Below, in pieces: positions 24,398 through 61,883 of a stretch of DNA of 64,000 nt. Position 1 is the stretch's first letter; the number at the start of each line of letters is the position of its first letter. The stretch is taken from assembly GCF_900114265.1 (NCBI RefSeq), contig NZ_FPKV01000003.1, positions 62,001-126,000 of the forward strand, in the 5' to 3' direction. The notes beneath the pieces are model-generated. The model saw only the letters and a program-made list of their open reading frames with translations, searched no databases and had not been told where the DNA came from. The stretch is from Flaviramulus basaltis (lineage in GTDB: Bacteria; Bacteroidota; Bacteroidia; Flavobacteriales; Flavobacteriaceae). Both the position numbers and the translations under genes were made by a program.

Positions 24398-24472
24398 CGG
24401 GGTGTAGCGTAGCCCGGTTATCGCGCCGCGTTTGGGACGCGGAGGTCGCAGGTTCGAATCCTGCCACCCCGA
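24398..24472 (+). tRNA. tRNA-Pro (anticodon UGG); integration site of the adjacent element
   Basis: The acceptor stem CGGGGTG pairs with CACCCCG. The D arm, an anticodon stem CCGCG/CGCGG with loop TTTGGGA (anticodon TGG) and the T arm GCAGG-TTCGAAT-CCTGC are all intact; the discriminator is A and CCA is not encoded. The 3' segment TCCTGCCACCCCGAC (24459-24473) recurs at 61869-61883, identifying this tRNA as the attachment site. Confidence 0.97.
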
Positions 24473-24473
24473 C
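24459..24473 (+). repeat. attL-type direct repeat (tRNA-Pro 3' end)
   Basis: The 15-bp TCCTGCCACCCCGAC is identical to 61869-61883. Flanking bases differ on both sides (A and T here; T and G at the other copy), so 15 bp is the whole shared core. Confidence 0.85.
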
Positions 24474-24676: not shown

Positions 24677-25876
24677 ATGAAAAACACAAACACCTTCAGT
24701 ATTCTGTTCTGGTTAAAACTAGCCAATGCCAAGAACGGAAAAGCACCCCTTTATGCCCGAATTACAGTGAATGGAAAACGTGCAGAATTATCACTAAAAA
24801 GAAAACTCCTTGTATCCAATTGGGATGCCAACAAAAACAGGTTAAAGGGACTGAGTGACGTGACCAAGATATTCAACAATTATCTGGAGCAGGTACATTC
24901 TGAACTTTTTGAAAGCTATCAAGAGCTTAAGGATAAAAACCAATTGGTAACAGCACAGTTGATCAAATCATCATTTCTGGATAATGGCATAAGCAACCAT
25001 GCATTATCAGACATTATAGACTATCATAATGAGCATATGAAGTCCACATTACGATGGGGAACACAGAAGAACTATTTTACGACCCATAAATACCTTTATC
25101 TTTTTCTAAAGCAAAAGCACAAAACAACGGATATGTTTTTATCCCAATTAAGCTATAAGTTCATCATTGATTTTGAACGCTATTTAAGACACCAAAAATC
25201 CATGGGCAACAACACGGTCATGAAGCATATAGAACGATTGAGAAAAATGGTCAGTCTAGCTTATAAGATGGAATGGATAGAAAAGGACCCATTCATAAAG
25301 TTTGAGGCCAAGTACGAAAGAAAGGAAAGAACGTTTTTAACAACAAATGAGTTACAAACCATAGAGGATAAACAGTTTGACATTCCAAGATTGCAACTCA
25401 TAAAAGATTTGTTTGTTTTTAGTTGTTATACTGGGCTGTCCTATGGTGATGTTATGGGTTTGACCAGAGATAATCTGTGTATAGGCATAGATGGAAAACA
25501 ATGGATATATTCACAAAGGGAAAAGACCAGTGTTCCAGTGAAAATCCCATTGTTATCAAAAGCATTAGGCATTATAGCAAAATATAAAACACATCCCAAT
25601 TCCATAAATAAGGAAACTCTGTTCCCAACCATATCAAACCAGAAGTTGAATTCCTATTTAAAGGAAATAGCGGATGTTTGCAGGATAAGAAAGAACCTCA
25701 CATTCCATATAGCAAGACACACATTCGCTACCACGGTAACCCTGAGCAATGGTGTACCTATTGAAACTGTATCAAAGCTTTTGGGACATAGAAAAATCAC
25801 AACTACCCAGATATATGCAAAAGTGATTGAAAGAAAGGTGAGTGAGGATATGGAAAGATTGGAAAAATGTTTTTGA
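24677..25876 (+). CDS. int: Tyrosine-type site-specific integrase of the element
   Basis: A 399-residue Bacteroidota integrase: an N-terminal arm-binding domain (NGKAPLYARITVNGKRAELSL), a SAM-like core-binding domain (about residues 115-210), and a catalytic domain with FSCYTGLSYGDV, then HIARHTFATTVTLSNGVP (H-x-x-R), LLGHRKITTTQIYAKV (His and the nucleophile Tyr). The first catalytic Arg is Ser in CYTGLS, as is known for the CTnDOT integrase group. It recombines the tRNA-Pro attachment sites. It lies about 200 bp inside the left end, reading inward. Confidence 0.95.
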   Translation: MKNTNTFSILFWLKLANAKNGKAPLYARITVNGKRAELSLKRKLLVSNWDANKNRLKGLSDVTKIFNNYLEQVHSELFESYQELKDKNQLVTAQLIKSSFLDNGISNHALSDIIDYHNEHMKSTLRWGTQKNYFTTHKYLYLFLKQKHKTTDMFLSQLSYKFIIDFERYLRHQKSMGNNTVMKHIERLRKMVSLAYKMEWIEKDPFIKFEAKYERKERTFLTTNELQTIEDKQFDIPRLQLIKDLFVFSCYTGLSYGDVMGLTRDNLCIGIDGKQWIYSQREKTSVPVKIPLLSKALGIIAKYKTHPNSINKETLFPTISNQKLNSYLKEIADVCRIRKNLTFHIARHTFATTVTLSNGVPIETVSKLLGHRKITTTQIYAKVIERKVSEDMERLEKCF

Positions 25877-26316: not shown

Positions 26317-26970
26317 TTAATTATTTAGATTATTAAAACCATCTAAATCTCTCTGTATTCTGTCTTTTGGCAAACTCTTTAAAAACCCTAATGTACCTAA
26401 ATGACAATTTTTAATTTTAATTTCTTTACCACAAACACAAAATTGATTTCTACCTGGAATATCATTATTCTTAACAGATGTGAGTATTTTAATAATAACA
26501 GAAACATCATTCAATTTAAGTCTTTCTTCGTAGAATTGTATTACACCATCAAAATGATGCATGTATTCTTCATTAGCATATTTACCATTTTTCATTTTAT
26601 ATAACACGTTTGTGAAGAATGGGTATACTTTTTCTTGATAGAACGTAATAATATTTATACCACGTTTTGACATAAATTCTAGTTCATGATCTATATCCAA
26701 ACAACAAAAGCCATCTTCACTTATATGCCATTCATCAATTCTTTCTATTTTCGTACTTGTTTCCTTAACAATTGGTACACAATATGGATATTTTTGTTTT
26801 TCTATAAAGATTTCAATTTTAAATGAATCCCAATAATTGCCATCAACATCGCAAATATCAATCAAACCTTTAAGGATAGAACATTTCTTTTTTGGACGTT
26901 CGTAATACTTGAATTTTGGATATGTATTTAAAAAGCTATTAATATTTTTTTCTAGTAGACTATTAGTCAT
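26317..26970 (-). CDS. E2 ubiquitin-conjugating-like protein with C-terminal SEC-C-like zinc motif
   Basis: The 217-residue protein has a UBC-like core: LKGLIDICDVDGNYWDSFKI, KYPYCVPIVKET, then WHISEDGFCCLDI (residues 81-93). That box corresponds to the E2 active-site pattern H-x(n)-G-x-x-C-L and puts the candidate catalytic cysteine at Cys90. Two helices follow (about 108-155). The C-terminus GRNQFCVCGKEIKIKNCHLG has the spacing of a SEC-C zinc knuckle (Cys178, Cys180, Cys189, His190). Bacterial E2-like proteins normally accompany E1 and JAB partners, as in type II CBASS, but neither is present here. Its ATG overlaps the cyclase stop by 8 bp, so it is co-translated with the cyclase. Confidence 0.7.
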   Translation of the reverse strand: MTNSLLEKNINSFLNTYPKFKYYERPKKKCSILKGLIDICDVDGNYWDSFKIEIFIEKQKYPYCVPIVKETSTKIERIDEWHISEDGFCCLDIDHELEFMSKRGINIITFYQEKVYPFFTNVLYKMKNGKYANEEYMHHFDGVIQFYEERLKLNDVSVIIKILTSVKNNDIPGRNQFCVCGKEIKIKNCHLGTLGFLKSLPKDRIQRDLDGFNNLNN

Positions 26971-27970
26971 AAGAAAAATATGGTTTACTTAATTTTGCAA
27001 TAGGTTTTAAACTTGAAACAGTTAAAGGTTCTAAAATGTTGTTGGCTTTAGGAATAGCATTACCAAATTGGTCTACTGCAATGAATGGTTGCTTTTTCAA
27101 GAACAGCTCCCAATTGAAATCATATTGAGTATAATTGAAATTTCTATCTGCAATTCTATAAATATATCTGTCATTTTCATTTCCAGTTCTGCGACTAACT
27201 GGTTTGAATAAATCATCATTATTTTCTAATTCGGATTTAACAAATTCGCCAACGACAATACCATTAGTTTGTGCGCTAGATTGCATTTTACTTGCTAAAC
27301 TCGTATGTAAACTACAAGTAGTTACTTCACTTATCTCCCCAATACCAGCATTTCCCCATAATACGTCTTCGGTATGCCCTAAATCTATTCCAGTCCTGAT
27401 TGATATATTTTCAATCCCTTGAGAATTAAAATACTCTTTTAAATCGTTTTTAACAAAATGGGTGTATACACTAACAGCTTGTAGTGCTTGTAAAACAGCC
27501 TTTTCTCGCGACATGTTTTTACCTCCGAAATAAACAAAAATTCCATCACCTTGTAATCTATGTATATAACCACCAAAAATTAATGCTGTATGTATTCCTG
27601 CTCTTTGAATAGCATTAGTAATTAAAAATATCGTTTCCTTATCAAATTTCTTGAATAAGTTTGTACTTCCTTTTATATCAATGAAAGCTGAAACAATATA
27701 ATGTTCTTCTGTTGAATTTGAATTTTTTAAATGCCCAAAATCTGGATGAAGACCTAGTTGTTGTTCATAATTTATTGTTGTTCCTATTTGACTCGAAAAG
27801 CTTTTTAAGCTATCTGCAATATCCTTTTGAGAAGCCTTAAAATAGATATTATTAAATTGTTCTTTCGATCTTTGAATTACAGGTTGACCTAAACCTTCTC
27901 TTATGTAATTGGATGAATCAGAGCTTACAGCTTCTTTAATTACATCCATATAATCTTTATATATGTTCAT
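26963..27970 (-). CDS. pycC: Pycsar-like nucleotide cyclase (class III, PycC family)
   Basis: The 335-residue protein carries a class III adenylate/guanylate-type cyclase domain (about residues 88-270). The two metal-binding aspartates are Asp98 in AFIDIKGSTNLF and Asp142 in HRLQGDGIFVYFGG, with IRTGIDLG following. It has no sensor or membrane domain. Soluble single-domain cyclases beside a small membrane effector are the hallmark of Pycsar anti-phage systems, which make cCMP or cUMP on infection. The neighbour 3 bp upstream is just such an effector. The base specificity cannot be read with certainty from the sequence. Confidence 0.85.
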   Translation of the reverse strand: MNIYKDYMDVIKEAVSSDSSNYIREGLGQPVIQRSKEQFNNIYFKASQKDIADSLKSFSSQIGTTINYEQQLGLHPDFGHLKNSNSTEEHYIVSAFIDIKGSTNLFKKFDKETIFLITNAIQRAGIHTALIFGGYIHRLQGDGIFVYFGGKNMSREKAVLQALQAVSVYTHFVKNDLKEYFNSQGIENISIRTGIDLGHTEDVLWGNAGIGEISEVTTCSLHTSLASKMQSSAQTNGIVVGEFVKSELENNDDLFKPVSRRTGNENDRYIYRIADRNFNYTQYDFNWELFLKKQPFIAVDQFGNAIPKANNILEPLTVSSLKPIAKLSKPYFSYD

Positions 27971-27973
27971 GGT

Positions 27974-28465
27974 TTAAAATTTATTTATTAAAAAAATTAT
28001 TATTAATGGGACTAGTCCAATAAATTGAAAAACTAACAGTCGTCCCGAAAGTTTTAAGCGTTCAAACTTTTTATTGAGTCCTTTGGATAAAATATGTACT
28101 TGACTTCTTAAATCTTTAAGTTCATCTTTGGAATCATATTTTTTCGATTGCTCAATGAAGTCTTCTTTAGATAGCGTACCAATTGTGCCAAAATAAAAAA
28201 GAGAATTTGGCTTCTTGGAAAAATAAGGAATACTCGCAAGAACGAGTATTATTAAAGTAATAAGACCCAAACCTAGTATTGCACACAAAATTAAATTGAA
28301 TATATCTGTATACTCCTTAATGTACTTATCTATATTTACGTAACTAGCTAAAACACCACTTAAAACAAATGTATTTATAGCTATATAAACAGCAGTCTTA
28401 TTATTTACACTTTCAAAATAGTGGTCAAATCGACTTATTGTATAGATTAATCTATCTTTTTCCAT
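27974..28465 (-). CDS. pycTM: Pycsar effector PycTM-like membrane protein (DUF5706 type)
   Basis: The 163-residue protein opens with ISRFDHYFESVNNKTAVYIA, the entry to the first helix (about 24-42), then a second helix (57-80). A cytoplasmic segment contains NSLFYFGTIGTLSKEDFIEQ and DLRSQVHILSKGLNKKFERL, and a C-terminal hydrophobic helix (about 143-163) ends it. This is the pattern of the Pycsar transmembrane effector domain. Such proteins bind the cyclic pyrimidine nucleotide and disrupt the inner membrane, causing abortive infection. The gene overlaps the LRAT-like gene by 14 bp and is 3 bp upstream of the cyclase. Confidence 0.82.
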   Translation of the reverse strand: MEKDRLIYTISRFDHYFESVNNKTAVYIAINTFVLSGVLASYVNIDKYIKEYTDIFNLILCAILGLGLITLIILVLASIPYFSKKPNSLFYFGTIGTLSKEDFIEQSKKYDSKDELKDLRSQVHILSKGLNKKFERLKLSGRLLVFQFIGLVPLIIIFLINKF

Positions 28466-28877
28466 TATTCACTTTGATTAATTTAGATGTGATTCCGAAC
28501 ATTATAATCAAGAATAAAATAGTTACTTGAACACTATTCTCTTTGCCTTTTTGTACCCAATTAGCATAATGCTCACAATTAAAATTTAGCAAACTGTATT
28601 TTTGACCTAATCTATGATATGCTCTATTTATCGCTTGGTTTCTTTGAAAATCTGTACCTTCAAATGGTTTTATTCTTATAGGCTCATAGTCTACTAGTAA
28701 ATCAGATAATTCTAATTCAGATAAAACTTTAACACCATCTTGAAGGTTTCCTATAAATGTTTCGTTTCCTACATAAACAACATAATGATTAAGTATTCTA
28801 CCTAATCCATTTCTTTTTTTTGCTACAATTACATCTGCTGGATATAATTGAGAATTCAATTGTAATTTTTTAATCAT
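28452..28877 (-). CDS. LRAT/NlpC-P60-like (NCEH motif) protein with C-terminal membrane helix
   Basis: The 141-residue protein has PADVIVAKKRNGLGRILNHYVVYVG with the candidate catalytic His31, and YSLLNFNCEHYANWV with the NCEH box (catalytic Cys101), the two signatures of the LRAT branch of permuted papain-like folds. Members are thiol acyltransferases, phospholipases or proteases. A hydrophobic segment (about 115-130) near the C-terminus would anchor it to the membrane. It overlaps the PycTM-like gene by 14 bp, tying it to the Pycsar operon. Its biochemical role there is unknown to me; action on lipid at the same membrane is a reasonable guess. Confidence 0.72.
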   Translation of the reverse strand: MIKKLQLNSQLYPADVIVAKKRNGLGRILNHYVVYVGNETFIGNLQDGVKVLSELELSDLLVDYEPIRIKPFEGTDFQRNQAINRAYHRLGQKYSLLNFNCEHYANWVQKGKENSVQVTILFLIIMFGITSKLIKVNNGKR

Positions 28878-29192: not shown

Positions 29193-29795
29193 ATGAGAGT
29201 AATACATTCTGGTAAACTAGAGATTAAAAGCAACTATGATAAAGTAGAGTGGGAGAGAGTGATTCCTGTCCTTATAGCTTTTGCGTATAGTTTACTAGGA
29301 AACAAGAAATTTACTAATAGGAGAGACCAGCTTGCTTACGATTTTGCAATTGAGACAATTACAAAATATCTTGAGAATAAGGATAAATTTAATCCAAGTA
29401 GAAACCCTGATTTAATCAATTATTTAAAATATAATATCTTGCGACAACTAATTTCTAATTTTGAAAATTCAGCAGGTATTAGAAAAAGAGTTATTTTAGA
29501 AAACACGAATGATAAAAATGAAACTAATTCAAAATACTCATTAGAACATTTATACAAAGAAGATAAATACATAGAAAATAATATTGATGAGAAGGTTTTC
29601 GTTCAAAAGATGGAGCAGAAACTTAAAAATGATTCTGAGTTAAAAGAAATTTTTGATTTACTTTATTATAAAGATTCAAAAAGAGCTGAAATTTGTAGCG
29701 ATTTAGATATTCCATTAAGAGAATTTGATAATAGGTATAGAAGGTTAAAACGTCTTTTAGATAATGAAATGAAAATACTACTTAAAAGCAAGTAA
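29193..29795 (+). CDS. Sigma-70-like / helix-turn-helix protein
   Basis: The 200-residue helical protein resembles a divergent sigma factor. An N-terminal part with DQLAYDFAIETITKYLENKDKFNPSRNPDLINYLKYNILRQ (split here as region 2-like) is followed by a C-terminal region-4-like helix-turn-helix (KRAEICSDLDIPLREFDNRY, RRLKRLL). The assignment rests on pattern, not on strong motifs. It overlaps the next gene by one base (TAATG), so the two are translated together. Divergence from the Pycsar-like operon makes it a candidate regulator of that operon. Confidence 0.55.
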   Translation: MRVIHSGKLEIKSNYDKVEWERVIPVLIAFAYSLLGNKKFTNRRDQLAYDFAIETITKYLENKDKFNPSRNPDLINYLKYNILRQLISNFENSAGIRKRVILENTNDKNETNSKYSLEHLYKEDKYIENNIDEKVFVQKMEQKLKNDSELKEIFDLLYYKDSKRAEICSDLDIPLREFDNRYRRLKRLLDNEMKILLKSK

Positions 29796-30550
29796 TGCAC
29801 AAAGATAGAAAGCTTAATAATATTAATCAATTTGAAAAAGACTTTGCTGAATCCGTTAGTTTTAACGAGGATATTGCTAGAGATTATTTAGAAGAGAATG
29901 GAGTTGATATAGATAAATTCATTAAGAAAGGACTTAATCAAATTCAAGCCTCTTTTAAGAAAAAAGAAATGCAATTGAGTAAAGCATTGTTTTTTAAAAG
30001 GGTAGTATTAGGTGCTGAAATAGTATATAAGTTACACAATGAGAGAACCTTTGGACATGTAAAGTTTATGAAACTTATGTACTTGTGTGAACAAGTATCT
30101 AATATGGAATTAGCAGTTAGATATGTAAAACAAGCAGCAGGACCATTTGACGCTAGATTTATGCATTCAATTGACAAAGAATTTATAAGACTAAAATGGT
30201 TTGATGTAAAAGTAAATTCTGGAAGAAAGTTTAATACTTATAAATATATTCCAGATGAAAAAATCATGTCATATAAAACGTATTATAACAAGTACTATTG
30301 CAATGACAATAAAGGAATAGAATGGTTAATCAAAACTTTTGGAAAACCACCAACTAAAAAAGTCGAGCTAGTTGCTACAATATATTCATGCCTTGATGAA
30401 TTTATTAAAAAAAATGAAGAGTTTTCTACTGAAATTCTAATTGAAAAAGTTTTTGATTGGTCTGTAGAGAAAAAAAAGAAGTTTACTAGAGCTAATATAG
30501 TTAGTGCTCATAATTGGATGATTGAAAATAGATTAATTCCAGTTTCATAA
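29795..30550 (+). CDS. Panacea/DUF4065-like domain protein
   Basis: The 251-residue protein has a central segment FGHVKFMKLMYLCEQVSNME followed by RYVKQAAGPFDARFMHSIDK. This is the KLxKLxYL...AAGPxD pattern of the Panacea/DUF4065 group (SocA/GepA antitoxin relatives) and of a helical module seen in some restriction-modification subunits. The N-terminal 60 residues are charged and helical. Panacea proteins neutralise diverse toxins, but no toxin I recognise is adjacent, only the sigma-like gene it overlaps. The role is therefore open: antitoxin, or a sensor partner of the sigma-like protein. Confidence 0.55.
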   Translation: MHKDRKLNNINQFEKDFAESVSFNEDIARDYLEENGVDIDKFIKKGLNQIQASFKKKEMQLSKALFFKRVVLGAEIVYKLHNERTFGHVKFMKLMYLCEQVSNMELAVRYVKQAAGPFDARFMHSIDKEFIRLKWFDVKVNSGRKFNTYKYIPDEKIMSYKTYYNKYYCNDNKGIEWLIKTFGKPPTKKVELVATIYSCLDEFIKKNEEFSTEILIEKVFDWSVEKKKKFTRANIVSAHNWMIENRLIPVS

Positions 30551-32261: not shown

Positions 32262-32666
32262 ATGGAAACAAAAACAAGAGCGAACGGAAGTGCAAAGAAA
32301 GAAACAGCAACCGTTAAGAACGAGGTGAAAAAGCAATTGGCGGAAGAAGCGATCGGAAAGGCCCAACAGGTCAAACAGGAGATTGTCAGCAAGCAAACGA
32401 TCAATTTGGCAGAGCGCATCCAAAAGTTTGAAAAGCTACGGGGATTGGCCACACAAAGGGAACGCCTGAACGAGACCTTGAACGAACTGACCAAGTTCAA
32501 CTACAACCAAGGGGATTCGGCATCGTTTTTCATTCGTGATTCCCATAATCTGGAGTTCAAGACGACCAATACCAATTTGATTAAGTTGGTGACCACACAT
32601 TTACAATCCACTTTGGAGATTCGTAAATCAGAAATTGAAAACGAGATTATACAGTTTGAACTGTAA
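32262..32666 (+). CDS. Hypothetical helical protein of the element backbone
   Basis: The 134-residue protein is rich in Lys, Glu and Gln, with long amphipathic helices (KKQLAEEAIGKAQQVKQEIV, QKFEKLRGLATQRERLNETL). A short beta-like central segment (SASFFIRDSHNLEFKTTNTN) is followed by a C-terminal helix. I do not recognise a family. The higher GC and codon use group it with the HEPN-like gene and bfmA rather than with the AT-rich cargo. It ends just before a strong terminator. Confidence 0.75.
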   Translation: METKTRANGSAKKETATVKNEVKKQLAEEAIGKAQQVKQEIVSKQTINLAERIQKFEKLRGLATQRERLNETLNELTKFNYNQGDSASFFIRDSHNLEFKTTNTNLIKLVTTHLQSTLEIRKSEIENEIIQFEL

Positions 32667-32768: not shown

Positions 32769-35700
32769 CTATACTATAAATAAGTATTTGTAATTATCTA
32801 AAACTTTTAAAACTTCATTGAATTGGTATGGTTTAGACTTATGTGCAAGGTAGATTTCTTGTAAATCATTCTTTAACTTATAAAAATAGAATAGGTCCAC
32901 ATTCTTACTTTTAATTATGATTTGCTCCAAGCTTTCAATAATACTTATTGCGTCAATTGTCGTATTAATAGTGTTCGTTTTACAAATATTTACTATGGTC
33001 TCACAAGAAAATCTCAATGGGTCGTCAAATCGCCCACTAACATTTTTGATATTTGGGTGTATTAAGCACAATTCAATAATTTTAAACAAATCTTTCAGAG
33101 CTGTATTGTTTGTATATTTTGAAGATTCACTATCTCTAAATTCATAAACTTCACTTATTGATTTTTTTAATTGATTATTATATAGAATGAGTAGTCTGTT
33201 AAAAACGGTTGGATTGTTTAATGTGATGAGTTTTTTAATTAAATCAATTTCAGTATAAATGTTCTCTTTTATTAAATTTGAGTAATTTTTGATGATAAAT
33301 GCGTCTGCAATTTTTCCCTCTCCTTTTTTGATTAATAAATCCATAATATTATTTAGAAAAATAGCATAGTTGTCTGTTTTTCCGTCGTAATTTAAAAACT
33401 CTATAAGTGTATTTATATCTTCAGAAAAACACAATTCTATTAAGTTATTTGCGTAATAAGTATCCTTTTCTATCAGAGTATAAATTTTCCCTTTAACATC
33501 GATATTCAGGTGTTCAAATTGAACGTTATTTTCTATGCAATATCGTATATGGTTAAGAAAACTTAATTTATTGGGAATACCTTTTTTTAAATTATCTAAT
33601 ATTCTTTGATTAATCTTTTCAATCCTAATATGGGTATTCATATAGTCAATATTAATTCCATTCGCCTTATGATTAAACCAAAGCATGTTCAATAAAAGTT
33701 CATCATCCAAATTAAAATTATAATGCTGTTGTATTTTATAAATATCTTCACATAGAATGTATTTTTGGGGATTCCAAGATTGTTTAACAAAGAGGTGGTT
33801 TTTAAAATAAATATTAGCTTCATTAGTCTTACTCATGCACCATGCTTCTAAAAAAGCTACTTGAGATTCAGATATATTAACATCACCGTTTTCCGTCGGA
33901 ATTTTGCTGACTATATGGTGAACAATATTATTTTGCATTGAAATTATGGCATCATGAACAACATTAATGTTGAGGTTTTTATTTTCAGGATAGTAATCTC
34001 TGAAAAATTCATAGAATAAACTTTTTACATTAGAATATACGAGTTTTTGTAGTTCAAGATTCCCCCAGTAATCGTCATCAATTTCATTGATTTTTTTAAA
34101 GTTTAGGTTTTCAACATTATAATAATTGTAGAGTTTCACTATTTGATTTGTAATTTCATCTATATCAAATAACACATCAAAATTTTTCTGATTATGTGAC
34201 TTCCAAAATTTTTTGTTTTCTAACGCTTCTTCAATCGTTATTTTTTCTTTAAAACGATAAGTAGTTTTACTTTCAACCATTTGTTCAAATCTAATGCTTA
34301 AATCCATACTTCTATGGCTTAAAACATTTCTAAATTCCCTAATAAAATCATCATTTAGTATATTTCTATTATACATATCTATTATTTCATGAAAATTTGA
34401 TTCCTTAACTAAAAATGATAAAAAATGTTTGCTGAAGGAATTTCCTTGAATTTTATTTAATACTATCTTAAAAATTTGATGTCCTATTTTGCAAGAATTA
34501 ATTATGCCCAATATTGAATCATCTTCGTAGTATCTAATCTTATTATTGATAACAGCATCAGATATTATACCTGTCAAAGTTTCGTAGTGTTCAGTTTTAC
34601 CTTTAAATATTAATTCAATATGCTTGGAAAAATCTTTAATCAACCTTTCATTTATTGGGAATTTATATCGTTGGATACAAAACGAATATATAATTAGTAA
34701 TATTTCTGGAGTTTCAATTCTTTTAAAAAGGTCAAATAAGCTTTCTTTTCTTGAGTAGATTGAATTGTATTTTGATTTTGTTTTCCATTGCTTATTACCA
34801 ATAGCTTTATCAAGTATGTCTAAAAAATAATGAATGTTAGTTTCAACCGATTTCGTCGGTACTGAGGTTACAATAGCACTTACAATTTCTTTAGCATCAT
34901 TATCACTCATTAGTCTAATTATTTGATTAAAAAAATCAATATCATTATTTAGATTTAGACTTTTTGAGAGTGAAATAACTTCTTGTTTCAGATAAACATC
35001 TTCTTCACTATTTGATTTTTCTTCTTTAAGAATATCTAGTATTAATTTTTTTAGTTCATCATGAAAATCGTTCCCTATTTCCATATGAGAAATAAGCGTT
35101 ACTGCTGATACTCTTGCTCTTCTATGGATTTTGGTGTCCTTTAATTTCCTAATTAAATAATTTATGTTCGAGTCTGTTTGGCTGAATGAAGCTATCCTTT
35201 TTGCATCATTTATCCAAAGGGTTTCGTTAACACATTTTTTTATAAAAAAATCTTGAAGGACTTTCGTTCTTATATCTTTGCTGATACGATTAGAATCTGC
35301 GTTGAAAAGGATTTCAAAATCATTATTTAATAGACAATCTACTAAAGCATCGTGTTTTGTTTTATCTAGTTCAAGATTTAGCATAAATGTTAAAACATTG
35401 TACCAAGTAGGATGTACCTTATTAGTGTTTTTGTCTATTGTAATAAAACTAATTATTTCATTAAATGATAAATCTTGAAGGAGCCTAGCAACGAAATATT
35501 CTTGAATATTTTTTTTAACAAATGACCAGCTACCGTCCAAATTTTCTTCTATGAAAGGGTTCTTCGAAAACTCTTTAACGTCAAGTTTTATAACTTTTTT
35601 TATTTCTAATGAAGTTAGAAACGGTTTCTGCATTGCTTCTAAAGCAAATGCCGCCCTTTGTGTATAACTAATAGTTTTATCTGTATCAAAATTTATATCG

Positions 35701-37004
35701 TTCTGATACTTATTTTTTCTGTCATCTTCTAATCTTGAATCAACATATTTATCAATTAATACTGCTTTGTTTGTTAACAGGACTTTCTCTTTTTGAAAGT
35801 TTGAACCAATAAGTTCCAAATAAAAAGGGTTTTCTAAAAGTTCTCTATGTTGTTGTATATCGAAGTCTTTATGCTCAGTGATTTTTAAATCAAACTTTTT
35901 TCTAAGAAAAGATAATGCACTTGGTAAATTAATTTCGTTTAAGAAATTAATATCAAAATTACTTATGTTCTTAATGAACTTTTTATAAACATTAGTTCGA
36001 CAACTAATTAAAAATTTCATTTTAGAATTATCAATATACTCAGAATTTTGTGCGATGAAGTTGCGAAGTTTGTTACTGAAATCTATAATATTTTCTATTT
36101 CATCTACTCCGTCCAATATTAGAACTATATTATGAATGAATTTGTAATTGCTAGGCAGTAAAGATTCTATGCTTGAGTCTGAAGAAAAGTTTTTTAGTAC
36201 ATAAAAAACTGGAATTAGATTTGTCTGATCTCTGTTTTGCCATAAATCTATTGCAAACCTTGATAATTCATAAGATTTTCCATAACCAGGGTTTCCTAAT
36301 AAAACAATGCCTAAATTGGTTTGTTCGATAGCCTTTTCAAGAGTATCAATATTTGTTTTTTCTTCATAAAAATATTTTCTATTTTGTGAATCTCTTATGG
36401 TTCTTTCTATATAAAAATCAGGCTTTTTAATTTTTCCTATGAATTTTTTCCTATCTCTTTCATCAACAATAATTTTATTGAGGTTTTTGCTTGAAAAAAT
36501 AAACCTGTCAAATTTCCCAAGTAACATTGCTCTGTCATCTTTCGATAACTCCGGGGCGTTGACCGAATACGTTTTTTTGTAAATATCTGGATAAAGAGAA
36601 AAATATTCATTAACCAATGTTTCTGGACTTAAAAAAGTGATTTTAAAATCTTTATTACTTAAAATCTCTAAAAAGGGTTTGTTTCTGGTTTCTTCAAAAA
36701 TATTAGAGAAGTCTCTTTTGGGAGAAATAAAAAGCATCAAGTCAATATCATTGTGAGTTGTGTAAAGCTGAGGTATTTTTATGAAAGCATTAGTATAGTT
36801 AAGTTCAGTTGTATAATCTTTGCATTCACAATATATATTGTAACTTCTATACTTGCCATCAACAATTTCAACCAAATTATCAAACCCATCTTGAGTCCCA
36901 GAAATTTGTATTCTTTTACGAACAACCGAATAATTCAGTTCTGTGAAAATTTTATCAAGAAAATCAATTGCTAATATCTCAAAATCACTCCCCTTTTTAG
37001 CCAT
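32769..37004 (-). CDS. Nuclease-NACHT defence protein (Mrr/REase-like domain plus NACHT NTPase plus helical repeats)
   Basis: In this 1411-residue protein, residues 1 to about 150 look like a PD-(D/E)xK restriction-endonuclease fold: FEILAIDFLDKIF, then GTQDGFDNLVEI (catalytic Asp) and IYCECKDYT (E-x-K) near residue 60. A NACHT NTPase follows, with Walker A LLGNPGYGKS near residue 238, Walker B IVLILDGVDEI near 298 and SCRTNVY. The rest, about 900 residues, is a helical array without clear catalytic motifs, probably the sensor. Such nuclease-NACHT proteins belong to bacterial NLR-type anti-phage systems: the repeats detect infection, NACHT oligomerises, and the nuclease destroys DNA. It is a single-gene unit, very AT-rich. 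Confidence 0.85.
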   Translation of the reverse strand: MAKKGSDFEILAIDFLDKIFTELNYSVVRKRIQISGTQDGFDNLVEIVDGKYRSYNIYCECKDYTTELNYTNAFIKIPQLYTTHNDIDLMLFISPKRDFSNIFEETRNKPFLEILSNKDFKITFLSPETLVNEYFSLYPDIYKKTYSVNAPELSKDDRAMLLGKFDRFIFSSKNLNKIIVDERDRKKFIGKIKKPDFYIERTIRDSQNRKYFYEEKTNIDTLEKAIEQTNLGIVLLGNPGYGKSYELSRFAIDLWQNRDQTNLIPVFYVLKNFSSDSSIESLLPSNYKFIHNIVLILDGVDEIENIIDFSNKLRNFIAQNSEYIDNSKMKFLISCRTNVYKKFIKNISNFDINFLNEINLPSALSFLRKKFDLKITEHKDFDIQQHRELLENPFYLELIGSNFQKEKVLLTNKAVLIDKYVDSRLEDDRKNKYQNDINFDTDKTISYTQRAAFALEAMQKPFLTSLEIKKVIKLDVKEFSKNPFIEENLDGSWSFVKKNIQEYFVARLLQDLSFNEIISFITIDKNTNKVHPTWYNVLTFMLNLELDKTKHDALVDCLLNNDFEILFNADSNRISKDIRTKVLQDFFIKKCVNETLWINDAKRIASFSQTDSNINYLIRKLKDTKIHRRARVSAVTLISHMEIGNDFHDELKKLILDILKEEKSNSEEDVYLKQEVISLSKSLNLNNDIDFFNQIIRLMSDNDAKEIVSAIVTSVPTKSVETNIHYFLDILDKAIGNKQWKTKSKYNSIYSRKESLFDLFKRIETPEILLIIYSFCIQRYKFPINERLIKDFSKHIELIFKGKTEHYETLTGIISDAVINNKIRYYEDDSILGIINSCKIGHQIFKIVLNKIQGNSFSKHFLSFLVKESNFHEIIDMYNRNILNDDFIREFRNVLSHRSMDLSIRFEQMVESKTTYRFKEKITIEEALENKKFWKSHNQKNFDVLFDIDEITNQIVKLYNYYNVENLNFKKINEIDDDYWGNLELQKLVYSNVKSLFYEFFRDYYPENKNLNINVVHDAIISMQNNIVHHIVSKIPTENGDVNISESQVAFLEAWCMSKTNEANIYFKNHLFVKQSWNPQKYILCEDIYKIQQHYNFNLDDELLLNMLWFNHKANGINIDYMNTHIRIEKINQRILDNLKKGIPNKLSFLNHIRYCIENNVQFEHLNIDVKGKIYTLIEKDTYYANNLIELCFSEDINTLIEFLNYDGKTDNYAIFLNNIMDLLIKKGEGKIADAFIIKNYSNLIKENIYTEIDLIKKLITLNNPTVFNRLLILYNNQLKKSISEVYEFRDSESSKYTNNTALKDLFKIIELCLIHPNIKNVSGRFDDPLRFSCETIVNICKTNTINTTIDAISIIESLEQIIIKSKNVDLFYFYKLKNDLQEIYLAHKSKPYQFNEVLKVLDNYKYLFIV

Positions 37005-37418: not shown

Positions 37419-38261
37419 ATGGGTAAGAATAAAAATTCTCAATCATTATTAATTTCCTTAAATATATTTGCTACAATAACCGCAATTGTTTTTGCGATTT
37501 TATCTGAGACTGATGATTCTTTTGATTTTATTAGTAAATGGCATATTATTCTTGGTGTGTTTATTCTTTACTTAATAATCAATTTCAGTAGAGTAATACA
37601 ATTTATTGATAGAATTAAATCTAGAATTAAATTTTTGCTAAATATTGTTATAGAATATAGGAGAGGGCATTTAGAATTTATTGATGTTCTAGGAGAAGAA
37701 GTAATGTATAATGAAGAATGTTTATTCAAAAGGATTAGAAGAAAGAAAGTTTATACTAGTAGCATTGCTGTTGATGGGAAGGTTGATAATGTTATTCATA
37801 CTTATAATTGTTATAATAGTCTAAACCACAAAAACAATATAGTAACAATATCTTATGGGAAAAAAGATGAAAATAAAAATATAGGTCATAATAAAAGACA
37901 ATTGCAATTTGGGTTTGTTGTAATATTACGTAATACTTTCCCTAAAAAAACAGAATCATGGGATACTGTTTGCAAACATTATACTAAAGTTTATGATTTA
38001 AAAATGTCTTTTTCTAAAACCAACCCTCCTAGAGATGTTTGTCTTTTTGCTGTTAGTGAGAACAGTAAAGGGAAAGAGGTTCTTACTCCTTTAGACATAG
38101 ACCCCTTAATAATGCAAAAATATAATAGAGTAGTTATGAAGATTAAGTTACTTCATATGCAAAAAGGAGATAAATTTAGAGTAAAATGGACTTGGGATTC
38201 GCCTAAGATTAAAAAGAAAGACAAGAAATCTAAAAAGCCTTCTAAAAAGAAGGCTAGTTAG
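37419..38261 (+). CDS. Two-helix membrane protein with soluble C-terminal domain, unknown function
   Basis: The 280-residue protein has two N-terminal transmembrane helices (about 10-27 and 42-62). They are followed by a roughly 190-residue beta-rich domain (ITISYGKKDENKNIGHNKRQ, FGFVVILRNTFPKK, VVMKIKLLHMQKGDKFRVKW) and a lysine tail rich in KKSKKPSKKKA. I recognise no family. A small membrane protein with a cytosolic domain, in AT-rich cargo between 42-bp inverted repeats and beside a NACHT gene, would fit a membrane-acting effector, but there is no sequence evidence beyond topology. Confidence 0.7.
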   Translation: MGKNKNSQSLLISLNIFATITAIVFAILSETDDSFDFISKWHIILGVFILYLIINFSRVIQFIDRIKSRIKFLLNIVIEYRRGHLEFIDVLGEEVMYNEECLFKRIRRKKVYTSSIAVDGKVDNVIHTYNCYNSLNHKNNIVTISYGKKDENKNIGHNKRQLQFGFVVILRNTFPKKTESWDTVCKHYTKVYDLKMSFSKTNPPRDVCLFAVSENSKGKEVLTPLDIDPLIMQKYNRVVMKIKLLHMQKGDKFRVKWTWDSPKIKKKDKKSKKPSKKKAS

Positions 38262-39658: not shown

Positions 39659-40192
39659 ATGGATGATTTTACCACAATTCGATTAAAGAAAAAGGTCATT
39701 AAAAGGTTCAAGGGATATTCGAAGAGGACCAGTCCCAGTTATTCCGAAACATTGGATTTTATGGTTGCCTTCTTTGAAGACACAGGGCTTTCACCCTATG
39801 ATACCATGCGCAACCCTATTTTATCCTGCACCGTTTCAATGAATAAAAGAATGGATGCTGTAGTGTCCATTTTAAGGAATATAGAGAAAACACAATTGAT
39901 CCCTACCCGTGAAATGTTGGAATCCCTATTTAAAGAAGTTGGGGATGAAGAGCCTGTTTATATTGAACGCACCCAAAAGGAAATAGAAGCTTCAAAAACC
40001 GAGACCGAAAAGCTTTTGGATTATTACATGAGGGAACTTGATAAGAACAATAAAGAGCTATATAAAATAAAGAATGAATTTAGCCATATGTTAAGAAAGG
40101 CATCCTATGTTAAAAGCACATTTGGAAAAAGTTACTATCGACTGGATATTCCAAGGGAAAAAATGGAAGCTGTAATGTCAATTTTTATTTGA
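39659..40192 (+). CDS. bfmA: BfmA/BtgA family mobilization protein
   Basis: The 177-residue protein has an N-terminal ribbon-helix-helix-like segment (TTIRLKKKVIKRFKGYSKRT, then SYSETLDFMVAFFEDTGLSP), the conserved NKRMDAVVSILRNIEKTQLIP block and a C-terminal coiled region. This matches the BfmA/BtgA proteins of Bacteroides mobilizable elements, which bind the origin of transfer and assist a relaxase. No relaxase gene follows; the next genes are the leftward secretion operon. A paralogue in the tandem element is at 63496-64000. Confidence 0.9.
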   Translation: MDDFTTIRLKKKVIKRFKGYSKRTSPSYSETLDFMVAFFEDTGLSPYDTMRNPILSCTVSMNKRMDAVVSILRNIEKTQLIPTREMLESLFKEVGDEEPVYIERTQKEIEASKTETEKLLDYYMRELDKNNKELYKIKNEFSHMLRKASYVKSTFGKSYYRLDIPREKMEAVMSIFI

Positions 40193-40326: not shown

Positions 40327-40839
40327 TCAACCAAAACTCTTTAATAGAACACTGGCTTGCAAAAAATGCTTCCCAGTTCTAAAGTTTTTTTTCCTTTCAA
40401 AATGCAGGTTTGTGATTTCCCCAAACTTGGTATCCTGCTCCAGTTTATGGATAAGCTTTAAGATAGCATTATAATCGCCTTCCAAAGTAAATTGAAAGGT
40501 ATTCACTTTTAAATCATTTTGTTCAATGATATGAGGCTCTAAAAAACCAACCACCTTAATGTTGGAACTATCGGCAAAAGCATTGATGGTTTTTAAAAGG
40601 CCGTTTTGCAATGAGCTTCCCTTTATTTGATATTTGTTCAACAGGGAGTCATAATACTTTTGTTTTTGCTTTAAGAGTGAAATTTGTTTGGGCGTGTTTT
40701 CAAATAAGGCCTCTTGTTGACTTAATGCATTGTACTCATTTTTAAGCACTAAGGTCTTTGAAATCGCCAATTGATAGCACAATACCAGCACTAAGATAAA
40801 ACCGATCCCAAATAATATGTTCTTAGTCTTGTTGGTCAT
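40327..40839 (-). CDS. Type II secretion GspM/PilO-like inner membrane protein
   Basis: The 170-residue protein has one N-terminal transmembrane helix (about residues 7-27), a coiled coil (ALSQQEALFENTPKQISLLK) and a ferredoxin-like alpha/beta C-terminal domain (VNTFQFTLEGDYNAILKLIH, then ITNLHFERKK). This topology is that of GspM/PilO, which pairs with GspL/PilN in the assembly platform. It overlaps the upstream GspL-like gene by 17 bp and is the last gene of the leftward secretion operon. Confidence 0.75.
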   Translation of the reverse strand: MTNKTKNILFGIGFILVLVLCYQLAISKTLVLKNEYNALSQQEALFENTPKQISLLKQKQKYYDSLLNKYQIKGSSLQNGLLKTINAFADSSNIKVVGFLEPHIIEQNDLKVNTFQFTLEGDYNAILKLIHKLEQDTKFGEITNLHFERKKNFRTGKHFLQASVLLKSFG

Positions 40840-42037
40840 GGATCATATTAAGTTTTAGGCTGAATTTTGAGCTGGATTTAGAAAGATCCTCATAACTTAC
40901 AATCTCAATATTATCTATCCACTGCATAGCCTCTAAATCGGCAATCCATTTTGAAAAAGAGTCACTGTTATTGGATTCACCAGATATCATCATAGTATTT
41001 TGATTGAGTTCAATAGGTTTATCCTTTTTAATGCTTTTTGTTAACGGTTGATAATTCAACTCAGACAATAAAATAGAATTTGGCAAACCCTGAACAATGT
41101 CATTTATATAAAAGGAGCTTTTGGAAGCACTGCTTTTGAGCATATCATCCACCATTTTCTGGGATTTGTTGACAGCCCCATCAAGCTTCAAAAGTTTTTC
41201 TTTGGTGGTTTTATTCACTTGTGAGGTTTGTTGCAAGGTGTTGACTTCATTGAAATAATGGTTAAACACAAAGAAGTTGATGAGTAATATGCCCAGAATA
41301 AAGACCAATCCCATTTTTAAAAATTGACCAGAATATCTGGACTGGCTATAATCACCTTTTAGATCATGTTTTATATTGTTTAAATTAGAAATGGATTCAA
41401 AATGATGTAAAACAAAATCCAATGCTCCAGCAAAGGATAGCACTTGATTATTATTGACTTGCAAGCCATTAATATCGTAAGATTCACATGCTTTTATCTC
41501 TGTTTTTTCAATGGCAGCAATTTTATTGTTTTCAAAAGAGACCCTAGCATTTGAAGTAAAAAGTGATTCATAAGCTGTAAATTTTGAGATACCTGAGGCC
41601 ACTAAATTCCCCAATGACATATTAATAATAGGTATCCCCTTTGTTTTATAATCAGAAATAAGCGCATCCAAATATGTTTTTCTACAAATGGAAATAAGAT
41701 GCGTTTTACCTTGTGATATGATCTCATAATAAAAGTCATCCAAATTGATATTTGAAAACGCACCATAAACAAGGTTCTCAGGGTTTGATTGCTCACTTTC
41801 AATTTGTTTAGTCAGAATTTGATCATTGTTCACAACCAGAAAGACTGCTTGGTTCTTTGGAAGCTTTGTAGCGAGGGTTTCAATCGAAGTATCATTGAAA
41901 CCGCATTCAATGTCCAATGCTTTTTTGGTCTTTTTTAATAAGATTCCATAATGTATCTCTTCACCATTTTTACTGGTTAATTCAACACCACAAAAGCGAT
42001 TGCCGTAAAGTAGGTATGTTTTAAGTGCCTCCAGCAT
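40823..42037 (-). CDS. Type II secretion GspL-like protein (PilM-PilN fusion layout)
   Basis: In this 404-residue protein the first roughly 220 residues form a cytosolic actin-like PilM/GspL-type domain (FCGVELTSKNGEEIHYGILL at the start). One transmembrane helix lies near residues 244-262 (LKMGLVFILGILLINFFVF). A coiled coil and a periplasmic ferredoxin-like domain follow, as in PilN. GspL recruits the secretion ATPase GspE to the membrane. It overlaps the secretin gene by one base and the GspM-like gene by 17 bp. Confidence 0.78.
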   Translation of the reverse strand: MLEALKTYLLYGNRFCGVELTSKNGEEIHYGILLKKTKKALDIECGFNDTSIETLATKLPKNQAVFLVVNNDQILTKQIESEQSNPENLVYGAFSNINLDDFYYEIISQGKTHLISICRKTYLDALISDYKTKGIPIINMSLGNLVASGISKFTAYESLFTSNARVSFENNKIAAIEKTEIKACESYDINGLQVNNNQVLSFAGALDFVLHHFESISNLNNIKHDLKGDYSQSRYSGQFLKMGLVFILGILLINFFVFNHYFNEVNTLQQTSQVNKTTKEKLLKLDGAVNKSQKMVDDMLKSSASKSSFYINDIVQGLPNSILLSELNYQPLTKSIKKDKPIELNQNTMMISGESNNSDSFSKWIADLEAMQWIDNIEIVSYEDLSKSSSKFSLKLNMIHDQQD

Positions 42038-44226
42038 TAATAGATGACCGTTGGTTTAATAAGTACCGTTAGTTTCGCTTTGGAATCGGTGCGCTTTCGT
42101 TTACTGAACAGCCATTTAATGACCGGTACCCTTGCTAAAAAAGGCACCCCGGAACCCGAATCATTTTTTTCTTGCTCTTCCAAGCCACCCAATACGACTA
42201 TATCCTGATCCCTTACCCTTATAATGGAGGTAAATTCCCTAGAACTTAAATCTGGTGGCGCATCTTCAGCTACCCGTAATCCAAAGCTGGATTGTACCAC
42301 AAAAATGTCTAGGGTCACTTGTCCGTCACCGGAGACCATAGGTTTTATGGTAAGCCCCAATTCAGCATCAATGGGCTCATAATTGGTGATTTCCGAGGTT
42401 TGTGGATTATCGGTACCATAAATATTACGCTGGGTCACCGCATAATAGGAGGTTTGCCCGTTGGAAAAGGTGGCCCTATGACCGTTCAAGGTAGATAGCT
42501 TGGGCGTGGAGCGTATTTTAATATTGCCATTGGTTTCCATAGCTTTTATGGTCGCAAAAAAATTGGGCACGACTTTACCAATATTGACATGGCCAAAGCC
42601 ATCAAACCCATTGAGAACCCGATTGATGGTTTTGGCACCTAAGGTTAAATCCGTAGTTGGGTACAATCCCCCTTTGGTTTCAACAGGCGCATCTCCAATA
42701 CCCCAACCTACACCAGCCTCAACAGTGGCATTTCTGCTCACTTCAATCAACATCACTTCAATCAAAATGACTGGAACGGGTTTATCTATTTTTTTTACAA
42801 AACTTTTAAAACGTTCGATGTTGGCTCCTGAACCCGTTACATAAAAACTGTTGAGCTCATAGTCAATTTTGATATTCAGATCTTGGGTAATCTCATCGGG
42901 AAGGACACTCAACAAAGCTTCTGCTTTAGTACCTGACTCACTAAAACTATTTCTTGTACCAGTATTAACGGACGTTCTATTTGAGGTGTTGTTGAGTCCA
43001 TTGCTATCAAATTGGTTGGTATAATTCCTGTTAAAATTATTGGAACCATAACCATTATAGCTATTGGAACTTCCATAGGTTCTTCCCACAGTTCTATTTC
43101 GATTGCCACCGCCCGCTGGGTCTGCCAATAACTCCACAGAACGATGCTGTAAATGGATGATCTCTACAGAACGCACGCTCAGTTGGTTTTCAGTTCCAAA
43201 AAAATAAGTACTACCTTCTTTTTTAAAGGTGAAATTTTTTGATTGGGGACTATTGTTGTTTTCTTGATTTGGGTTATTTCTGTTTACGTTATTGGGTTGA
43301 GAAACGATTGAACTGGATTCTGTTTGCGATTCAAACATTTTGACGAGCAGCTCATCAAAGGTGATGGCCTTGGTTTTAAAAGTAACCGTTCCCGCTTGGT
43401 CCAATGGTGCAGCGGTAAAGATATCGAGTTGAAGTTCATTGCCAATATCATTTATGATACCCGCTATGGGTGTGTTATTAAAATCCACTTCCAAGAGTTG
43501 GGAATAGGCATCCAAAACTTTATATGAGGTATCGGAACGCTTTCTTGTTGAGGCTGTATTATTGGTGCCATCATTTGAAATGGAAGCATCCTCGAAAACA
43601 AAAAAATTATCTTTCGTTTTTTCAACATAAAATTGATTCGATAGAGCAAGGTTGTCCATAGCCACATCAAATACCATATCCTTAATATAGGATGTGATTA
43701 GTTTGGTTTCAAGACCAGGTGTAAACACCAGGTTTTTACCAGATTCATCCATAATGCGTTTAAAGACCTCATACAGTTTGTCTCCTTTGGCATCTATGGA
43801 AATGGTATTGTTATCAGGATTGTAAACTACGGGAATAATGCGCTCTTCAGGTTGTTCAATGGGAGGTGTATATTTTTTTATGGAAAGGATATTGCCCGTA
43901 AAATCGATGGTCAGTTGGTATTCCTTGCATAAAAACACCAAAAGGTCGGCAACCGTTACATTAGAGAAGTTATTGACTATGGTAATTTGATTAAGTTCGG
44001 GAGAAAGGTTTAAATTGACCTTGTGGATATTGGACACTGCCAACAAAAAGTTGGACAACGAAATATTGCTAACGCTAATCTCTGTTTTAACTTGTTCGGA
44101 CAACCCAGCATTATCCACTGCCAAAACCTCTAACTGATTTTTAATGGTTTCAATACGGGCATCGTTGTTCTGGGAAAATCCAAAATGTATTGTTAATATA
44201 AATACTATAAAAAGCAGTTTTTTCAT
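42037..44226 (-). CDS. gspD: Type II secretion secretin GspD-like
   Basis: The outer-membrane channel of the secretion system. The 729-residue protein has a signal peptide (about 1-18) and an N0/STN-like domain (ISLSNFLLAVSNIHKVNLNL). Further N domains follow, separated by an unusual Asn/Gly/Ser-rich insert of about 60 residues (near 375-435). The C-terminal secretin domain has PVILIEVMLIEVSRNATVEA, LGLTIKPMVSGDGQVTLDIF, IVVLGGLEEQEK and the signature VPFLARVPVIKWLFSKRK. No pilotin gene is evident, although two lipoprotein genes lead the companion operon. It lies 64 bp after gspE. Confidence 0.92.
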   Translation of the reverse strand: MKKLLFIVFILTIHFGFSQNNDARIETIKNQLEVLAVDNAGLSEQVKTEISVSNISLSNFLLAVSNIHKVNLNLSPELNQITIVNNFSNVTVADLLVFLCKEYQLTIDFTGNILSIKKYTPPIEQPEERIIPVVYNPDNNTISIDAKGDKLYEVFKRIMDESGKNLVFTPGLETKLITSYIKDMVFDVAMDNLALSNQFYVEKTKDNFFVFEDASISNDGTNNTASTRKRSDTSYKVLDAYSQLLEVDFNNTPIAGIINDIGNELQLDIFTAAPLDQAGTVTFKTKAITFDELLVKMFESQTESSSIVSQPNNVNRNNPNQENNNSPQSKNFTFKKEGSTYFFGTENQLSVRSVEIIHLQHRSVELLADPAGGGNRNRTVGRTYGSSNSYNGYGSNNFNRNYTNQFDSNGLNNTSNRTSVNTGTRNSFSESGTKAEALLSVLPDEITQDLNIKIDYELNSFYVTGSGANIERFKSFVKKIDKPVPVILIEVMLIEVSRNATVEAGVGWGIGDAPVETKGGLYPTTDLTLGAKTINRVLNGFDGFGHVNIGKVVPNFFATIKAMETNGNIKIRSTPKLSTLNGHRATFSNGQTSYYAVTQRNIYGTDNPQTSEITNYEPIDAELGLTIKPMVSGDGQVTLDIFVVQSSFGLRVAEDAPPDLSSREFTSIIRVRDQDIVVLGGLEEQEKNDSGSGVPFLARVPVIKWLFSKRKRTDSKAKLTVLIKPTVIY

Positions 44227-44290
44227 ATATGGTTTTGCTCAATGCTATTTTTAGCAATTTTTTTCAATAGTTATTCAATTCTTTTTTGAT

Positions 44291-45700: not shown

Positions 45701-45703
45701 AGT

Positions 45704-46620: not shown

Positions 46621-46634
46621 AGTGGTGGGTTATT

Positions 46635-61868: not shown

Positions 61869-61883
61869 TCCTGCCACCCCGAC
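61869..61883 (+). repeat. attR-type direct repeat and junction with the second element
   Basis: TCCTGCCACCCCGAC is identical to the tRNA-Pro 3' end at 24459-24473. No tRNA body precedes it, so it is a site duplication, not a second gene. Confidence 0.85.

Follow-up and report, generated by a model that had tools for sequence, protein, structure and literature searches.

A putative nuclease-NACHT antiphage receptor with a family-specific helical array on a tRNA-Pro island of Flaviramulus basaltis

A single gene on a tRNA-Pro island in the 64,000-nucleotide stretch of Flaviramulus basaltis DNA analysed here (the window) quite probably encodes a single-protein STAND/NACHT antiphage receptor. A phage trigger sensed by its C-terminal helical array would bring the protein into oligomers, activate an N-terminal nuclease and lead to abortive infection. 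The family is a new branch of the known bacterial NACHT immune receptors. An NLR-like antiphage protein of the bNACHT kind had been proposed in the original prediction; this is the best supported reading, through the NACHT motifs, the exchange of effectors and the defence neighbours, but its nuclease is recognised by motif and its placement in the genomic backbone was wrong. The gene and its parts are the following.

32769..37004, minus strand: the whole nuclease-NACHT-helical array gene (ATG start, 1411 aa, single ORF)
36555..37004, minus strand: predicted PD-(D/E)xK effector, residues 1-150 (E9, D42, E60 and K62 invariant in five rows)
35685..36404, minus strand: NACHT NTPase, residues 201-440 (Walker motifs; weak Pfam NPHP3_N and NACHT matches)
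36273-36296, minus strand: Walker A motif GNPGYGKS, residues 237-244
36099-36119, minus strand: Walker B motif ILDGVDE, residues 296-302
35085..35684, minus strand: putative winged-helix/helical part with KKNIQEYFVA, residues 441-640 (weak NLRP3 alignment)
32772..35084, minus strand: helical array, predicted sensor, residues 641-1411 (family-specific profile; low-confidence helical model)

The single-gene ORF of 1411 residues is real, as had been claimed. Mariniflexile gromovii, which belongs to another genus, carries a full-length relative (L005) with 67% identity to the window protein, and two further relatives, L006 (41%) and L008 (23%), align with it end to end; the ORF is therefore more than a chance reading frame. 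It stands alone, its 5' neighbour (ORF 37419-38261) being divergent and its 3' neighbour (ORF 32262-32666) convergent. The distribution is patchy: relatives occur in 4 of 199 genomes of the taxonomic family and 7 of 395 of the order, the genome studied here being included in both counts. They were also found on a Bacteroides plasmid, and scans of viral collections yielded one true relative contig, L013, which recurs there as L048 and L049. Another viral entry, L050, exhibits a weak NACHT match (E-value = 4e-5).

The predicted Walker A and B boxes are both present in the central part of the protein. The Walker B motif is of the hhhDGhDE form, and the NTPase is followed by a part that probably corresponds to a winged helix, as is characteristic of bNACHT proteins. 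Residues 441-640 belong with the NACHT core, and a winged helix within them is suggested by a weak alignment with NLRP3. In the window protein the Pfam NPHP3_N (E-value = 3.6e-5, score 24.5 against a cut-off of 24.8) and NACHT (E-value = 1.9e-4, 21.7 against 26.7) models both score below their cut-offs, whereas NACHT exceeds its cut-off in the relatives L002, L045, L012 and L043. NACHT is the Pfam family common to all 13 rows of the family alignment A2 (E-value<=0.1). Searches of the window protein against Pfam, NCBIfam and PADLOC returned weak NACHT-type matches and chance hits, nothing more. Against PDB sequences, the family profile finds P-loop proteins from an E-value of 0.0014, NLRP3 from 0.03 and NLRC4 from 0.09. 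The window protein by itself gave a sole PDB match, to a WW domain (E-value = 0.4), which we judged to be due to chance.

The N-terminus had been described as Mrr/PD-(D/E)xK-like. Its catalytic pattern E9/D42/E60-x-K62 (ECK being residues 60-62), of the PD-(D/E)xK type, is invariant across the five aligned rows, and on these conserved residues we predict a PD-(D/E)xK nuclease. The fold found no confirmation from profiles or models: residues 1-150 are recognised by no profile of the Pfam, NCBIfam and PADLOC libraries, the nuclease-region profile matches no PDB sequence at E-value<=1, and the AlphaFold2 model of the N-terminal half (mean pLDDT 42.7) is useless for fold assignment. Comparison by hhalign with the Mrr-like N-terminus of the relative L045 (probability 0.1%) gave no sign of kinship between the two nuclease types.

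The region from residue 641 onwards matches no library domain in Pfam, NCBIfam, PADLOC or PDB sequences, in agreement with the earlier statement that it lacks a recognised domain. Its length is about 770 residues; the 900 or so originally given are reached only if part of residues 441-640 is counted. Structure prediction, proposed earlier as a check, gave a weak model of the C-terminal half, all-helical at low confidence in AlphaFold2 (mean pLDDT 56.3). A Foldseek search with this model returned generic HEAT-like solenoids, with TM scores of at most 0.29 among the matches listed (50 of 1084). The array is thus likely to be a helical solenoid, as far as such a model can indicate.

Leave-one-out profiles recover the array (641-1411) in 11 of the 13 rows, the window protein included (E-value<=6e-22). 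The tails of L044 and L011 were not recovered by these profiles, and both are omitted from the core profile A5; a tblastn search with L004 aligns L011 over positions 250-1367 (E-value = 5e-38). None of 18 control NACHT ORFs matches the array profile at E-value<=10. These controls come from 16 genomes picked for a matching NACHT, mostly of one family, and are as complete as their contigs allow; 14 have at least 590 residues after the NACHT match and the other four fewer than 450. Shorter versions ending at the edges of short loci gave the same tail outcome as the fuller ones. By these profile comparisons the array appears to be specific to the family.

The same core is combined with different N-terminal or neighbouring enzymes. 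In L002 and L003 it lies next to an abutting metallophosphoesterase ORF (PF00149, E-values 2e-16 and 3e-16), a pairing that is perhaps also found in L012, and elsewhere it is fused to SMEK_N (E-value = 5e-19). The N-terminus of L043 exhibits a DUF4062 match below the cut-off (E-value = 1.3e-3), and those of L004 and L058 are assigned to DUF4062 by likeness. L045 bears an Mrr-like nuclease (E-value = 2.8e-4, just above the cut-off), which differs from the predicted nuclease of the window protein; L009 is assigned an Mrr-like nuclease by likeness. Constraining the nuclease-bearing cores to one clade, a test chosen after the first tree had been inspected, was rejected (lnL -198.8, p-AU 5.5e-7). 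The second tree, to which this test belongs, omits L044, L011, L012 and L013, which had long branches in the first, as well as L007. The nuclease module thus sits on cores that are not sisters, from which we conclude that effectors have been exchanged. A tripartite plan with an exchangeable N-terminal effector is again what is seen in bNACHT proteins.

We tentatively propose, as an idea somewhat more doubtful than probable, that the array is a sensor module of a kind not described before, which responds to a single, conserved trigger and serves at least five effectors: nucleases of two types, SMEK, a DUF4062 NADase and, acting in trans from the abutting ORF, a metallophosphoesterase. If so, the pairing in trans would make the family a NACHT sensor able both to carry and to recruit a partner enzyme. 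The array might monitor a host chaperone or process rather than bind a phage protein directly; its retention across effector changes is what a fixed target, of host or phage origin, would lead one to expect. Such indirect guarding, which we think rather unlikely, has its precedent in bNACHT25, which monitors host DnaJ (PMC12169576, in excerpt). On the other side, the array diverges faster than the rest of the protein, with identities of 54-68% against 73-77% for L005 and 30-38% against 45-58% for L006, as would fit direct contact with a changing ligand; the pair L004/L043 hardly exhibits this difference (tail 38-41%, N-terminus 42%). NCH1, the sensor domain of bNACHT25 and bNACHT32 (PMC12169576, in excerpt), is likewise missing from the Pfam matches of the window protein (E-value<=1), nor does it figure among 25 of the 26 families matched by the 13 rows (E-value<=0.1), in a library that may not hold an NCH1 model.

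The original prediction had the gene inserted between backbone genes. It lies instead within a 37.4-kb tRNA-Pro island, which it shares with a Pycsar operon.

24398..24473, plus strand: tRNA-Pro (tgg), with the left attachment site formed by its 14-nt 3' end (24460-24473)
24677..25876, plus strand: island tyrosine integrase (Phage_integrase 1.9e-14, Arm-DNA-bind_5, SAM_5)
26317..28877, minus strand: Pycsar-type operon (E2-like, PycC, 2TM effector, LRAT-like)
61870..61883, plus strand: right attachment site, where the 14-nt tRNA-Pro 3' end recurs

Since the tRNA-Pro 3' end is repeated and each copy is followed by a tyrosine integrase, we regard the gene as cargo of an integrated island. The second integrase seems to be broken, in two frames (62108-62785 and 62763-63365). 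Among the relatives, Gabija GajA/GajB lies directly upstream of the G315 fragment, the G042 copy has a type I restriction endonuclease and AbiU no more than about 5 kb away, and recombinase-like genes (named by likeness) occur within several kb of L005 and G432. The cargo status, these recombinase-like genes and the relatives on a plasmid and a viral contig would also suit a receptor directed at competing plasmids, islands or conjugation, whose DNA it would destroy on sensing them, phages not being its main target. We consider this improbable: mobile cargo is the usual state of antiphage genes too, and phage proteins are what the NACHT, Avs and Swarozyc proteins that have been characterised respond to (PMC12169576, PMC12931631 and PMC13174449, each in excerpt). 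An antiphage receptor remains our preferred reading. A regulatory or housekeeping STAND protein of NACHT type would accord with the fact that we know of no family member assayed for defence, nor of any experiment showing it, but is very improbable given the patchy distribution, the defence neighbours and the exchange among catalytic effectors.

By analogy with characterised relatives, phage-triggered assembly followed by DNA degradation is the most likely action of the window protein. At rest, the array would keep the NACHT module closed. Once the array has engaged a product of the phage, or a host process that the phage upsets, the NACHT module would exchange nucleotide and the protein would assemble into oligomers, in which the clustered PD-(D/E)xK domains would become active and cut both phage and host DNA, aborting the infection.

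One conserved sensor with several natural effectors poses directly the question of what the array senses, and with an active-site-dead or NADase-bearing relative the trigger could be sought in the absence of nuclease activity. The metallophosphoesterase pairing may allow one circuit to be compared in a one-protein and a two-protein form. Within Bacteroidota, the family also broadens the NACHT immune plan.

Among known systems, Avs1-4 (AVAST) share with the window protein the plan of nuclease, STAND and C-terminal sensor (PMC12931631, in excerpt). No Avs match was found in PADLOC at E-value<=1, and none of the 60 of 62 PDB rows listed is named Avs. Both libraries presumably hold Avs entries. 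NCBIfam EruA (NF058535) matches 11 of the 13 family rows (best E-value = 3.3e-14) and HyoA (NF058534) seven (best E-value = 1.8e-9). The best stretches of these NACHT antiphage proteins fall in the NACHT or in the NACHT and winged helix and score 14-52 bits where the cut-offs are 1000 and 1200, short of membership; none of those listed extends into the tail, in a list that does not include the further HyoA stretch of L008 and of L011. Neither model matches the window protein at E-value<=1 or L058 at E-value<=0.01, and our literature search found no source paper for either. Swarozyc is a DUF4062 NADase (PMC13174449, in excerpt), like the N-termini carried on the same core by L043 (weakly, by Pfam) and by L004 and L058 (by likeness), and unlike the window protein, which has no DUF4062 match in Pfam at E-value<=1.

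The plan predicted here is also that of bNACHT25 and bNACHT32 (bNACHT clade 6), which unite a PD-(D/E)xK N-terminus, a central NACHT and a C-terminal helical sensor in one chain, a likeness of description, not of sequence. Their sensor is an NCH1 domain, that of the window protein a tail of about 770 residues; there the nuclease mutation D48A abolishes defence, and DNA is degraded upon activation (PMC12169576, in excerpt). In DS-8 of DefensePredictor, a metallophosphatase-NACHT system of E. coli, mutation of either domain abolishes defence (PMC13092281, in excerpt). The N-terminus of the window protein, unlike that of DS-8, is nuclease-like; by description, not by tail sequence, DS-8 resembles the present family in joining a NACHT to a catalytic N-terminus, and the metallophosphoesterase pairing of L002 and L003, and perhaps of L012, recalls it.

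P0001, a protein of 1411 aa, is encoded by an intact ORF with an ATG start codon (32769-37004, minus strand). The orientation of the neighbouring genes leaves it as a single transcription unit, in line with the single-gene organisation that had been proposed. In Pfam, P0001 was matched by NACHT-type models only, and weakly: NPHP3_N (E-value = 3.6e-5, 24.5 bits against a cut-off of 24.8) and NACHT (E-value = 1.9e-4, 21.7 bits against a cut-off of 26.7); all other Pfam matches were at chance level. No PADLOC model matched at E-value ≤ 1, and the one NCBIfam match at E-value ≤ 1 is attributable to chance. The following motifs were identified in P0001:

Residues 9, 42 and 60-62: E9, D42 and ECK, in the N-terminus
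Residues 237-244: GNPGYGKS
Residues 296-302: ILDGVDE
Residues 335-338: CRTN
Residues 497-504: KKNIQEYF

The predicted NACHT Walker boxes are thus present (GNPGYGKS and ILDGVDE). The N-terminal 175 residues are, by single-sequence search, common only to P0001 and three relatives (phmmer E-value = 9e-88 for L005 from Mariniflexile gromovii, 9e-61 for L006 and 7e-20 for L008), and a fragment from genome G315 (L047) also has an N-terminus of this type. The positions conserved without exception in five rows include E9, G36, Q38, G40, D42, E60 and K62, a pattern that fits a PD-(D/E)xK nuclease. Of the original Mrr/PD-(D/E)xK assignment it is these motif residues that stand: no confirming profile for the fold was found in Pfam, PADLOC, NCBIfam or PDB, an hhalign comparison with the Mrr-like nuclease type failed, and the model of residues 1-660, built from three sequences, was of low confidence (mean pLDDT 42.7).

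N-termini are exchanged among relatives with this core. An Mrr-like nuclease is found in L045 (Mrr_cat, E-value = 2.8e-4, just over the Pfam cut-off), the core and partial tail match of which are spread over two ORFs, and, by likeness, in L009 and L044. DUF4062 occupies this place in L043 (E-value = 1.3e-3, under the Pfam cut-off) and, by likeness, in L004 and L058; L013 exhibits SMEK_N (E-value = 5e-19), and L011 a stretch without assignment. In L002 and L003, the NACHT ORF starts directly 3' of the stop codon of a metallophosphoesterase ORF (PF00149, E-value = 2.2e-16 and 3.4e-16). The two ORFs of each pair share one frame with a single stop between them (TAG in genome G090, TAA in G058), and may be two genes or, alternatively, a read-through fusion. 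In L012 the apparent end of a metallophosphoesterase domain is fused to NACHT, as judged by eye; Pfam made no such call there.

In a tree of the cores, computed without the N-terminus, L008 (P0001-type nuclease) pairs with L009 (another nuclease), and P0001 groups with the metallophosphoesterase-linked cores. After removal of four long-branch rows and L007, a tree in which the four nuclease-type cores are forced into one clade is worse by 198.8 log-likelihood units (p-AU = 5.5e-7). The nuclease module has therefore moved between cores, or been replaced, at least once, and this provides the strongest evidence for residues 1-150 as a separable effector. Effector exchange is a familiar theme among STAND proteins, so that the P0001 family belongs to a known kind. 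Its least ordinary feature is the abutting metallophosphoesterase ORF, of which we found no description; this is weak evidence, as the literature search was shallow and subscription papers were mostly outside it.

Leave-one-out profiles on a 13-row alignment including P0001, in which close rows support each other, recovered the tail (residues 641-1411) in 11 rows (E-value ≤ 6e-22), all except L044 and L011, and both region 441-640 and NACHT in all 13. The half 641-1000 was missed in L044, L011 and L013, and the half 1001-1411 in L011, with L044 at 6e-4. Queries made from P0001 only were also sufficient for the tail halves to reach L002 (1.6e-5) and L043 (1e-6). Against 18 control NACHT-matching ORFs, each fetched as fully as its contig allows, the tail profile gave no match at E-value ≤ 10; the 441-640 profile weakly matched nine (best 1e-3), and one control (L033) matched two mixed N-terminal profiles (2e-5 and 5e-4). 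The tail family has no name in Pfam, NCBIfam or PADLOC. Identities of P0001 in the N-terminus, NACHT, region 441-640 and tail segments are 77%, 73%, 77% and 54-68% with L005, 58%, 45%, 49% and 30-38% with L006, and 33%, 24%, 26% and 10-19% with L008. Between L004 and L043 the tail (38-41%) is near the N-terminus (42%) and lower than NACHT (49%), and between L002 and L003 it shows 36-43% against 50% for NACHT. A faster-changing tail is compatible with a sensor role; relaxed constraint would explain it too. Of the helical sensor originally predicted, the helices are supported at low confidence: the tail model (mean pLDDT 56.3) contains nothing else, and its likeness to HEAT solenoids is general only.

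Relatives were found in 4 of 199 genomes at the family level, in 6 of 395 at the order level with P0001 as single query (7 of 395 with a profile of residues 441-1411), and in 21 of 395 at the phylum level with a whole-protein profile; these samples overlap, and each count includes the own genome. Among the 21, matches are end-to-end in three (the own genome, G042 and G774), partial in G891 and G831, and confined to the NACHT stretch (model positions 200-490) in the remaining 16. Two plasmid records and one phage record were also hit, and the viral contigs yielded one true relative. The family is patchy in distribution, scans and samples outside Bacteroidota being limited. L005 is a full-length relative (67% identity), with an integrase-like gene, named by likeness, about 4.4 kb away. 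The viral-contig copy, L013 (7458-11480), is an intact SMEK-NACHT-array protein near two recombinase-like ORFs and one large helicase-like ORF (named by likeness), and is probably a defence gene borne by a phage or mobile element. The copy in G315 is split between two contigs (L047, 10548-11796; L046, 13207-16623), and one of its pieces has after it, at the end of the contig, an ORF that looks by eye like a transposase; this gene seems to have been broken by an insertion element.

The P0001 gene lies between two direct repeats that bound a 37.4-kb island:

24460-24473: 14-nt end of tRNA-Pro
61870-61883: second copy of the 14-nt end

After each copy come a stretch of 65 nt, related between the two (74%), and then an integrase of the Arm-DNA-bind_5/SAM_5 kind. 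The second integrase (62108-63365), right of the 61870-61883 copy, is apparently broken, which suggests an older tandem element. In the whole genome, the 14-mer is present at four sites (reversed control, 0), the two further copies being 19 kb apart on contig C11. In the three genomes examined of 40 searched (G006, G017 and G019), the gene left of tRNA-Pro is the same (66-71% identity). In the 16-17.5 kb fetched to its right, G017 and G019 have no ORF resembling those of the window; the second integrase has a 71% counterpart in G006. Given the repeated tRNA-Pro end, the integrases and the variable right flank, the P0001 gene is cargo of an island at an integration hotspot, rather than inserted between backbone genes as first described. 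The island also contains a Pycsar operon and, at 40327-47330 and 60556-61686, genes of a type II secretion/pilus-like kind (Secretin, T2SSE, T2SSF and pilus-like). In G017 and G019 the 40327-47330 cluster is found on different contigs, and it may therefore have moved or been captured. The proteins of 39659-40192, in the island and lacking a Pfam match, and 63496-64038, past its right end, are alike by eye (MDDFTTIRLKKK... and MDDFNTILLKKK...).

26317-28877, minus strand: Pycsar-type operon (cyclase, 2TM effector, E2-like gene, LRAT/NlpC-like gene)

The E2-like gene matches the PADLOC E1-E2 model (5.5e-90). PycTM, PycC and E2 matches occur together in all four other family genomes with a cyclase at E-value ≤ 1e-20 (198 searched); among the first 10 of 372 papers matched in a literature search, none evidently concerned a pyrimidine cyclase with an E2-like partner. 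The C-terminal part of the 29795-30550 product, which we take to be perhaps a Panacea/SocA-like antitoxin, matches PADLOC type I methyltransferase/specificity models over only their last ~180 residues. Seven neighbours of relatives were scanned: GajA and GajB lie directly upstream of the G315 fragment. Near the G042 copy are a type I REase and AbiU. A large protein of G365 has matches to helicase and methyltransferase models from several systems (best 6e-15), and no match was obtained for one G432 neighbour or for a second G365 neighbour.

In the reports on bNACHT25/32 (PMC12169576), DS-8 (PMC13092281), Swarozyc (PMC13174449) and Avs5 (PMC12931631), the common plan is an effector turned on by a phage signal, passing in the STAND members from a C-terminal sensor through the NTPase to an N-terminal effector; the tripartite modular plan of STAND proteins is stated in PMC12931631. 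By analogy, the original prediction is the best reading of P0001, probably with a DNase effector and abortive infection: a phage signal would lead to oligomerisation, the activated protein would cleave DNA through its N-terminal effector, and the cleavage would result in cell death. EruA and HyoA match the P0001 family within the NACHT region, or within NACHT and the winged helix.
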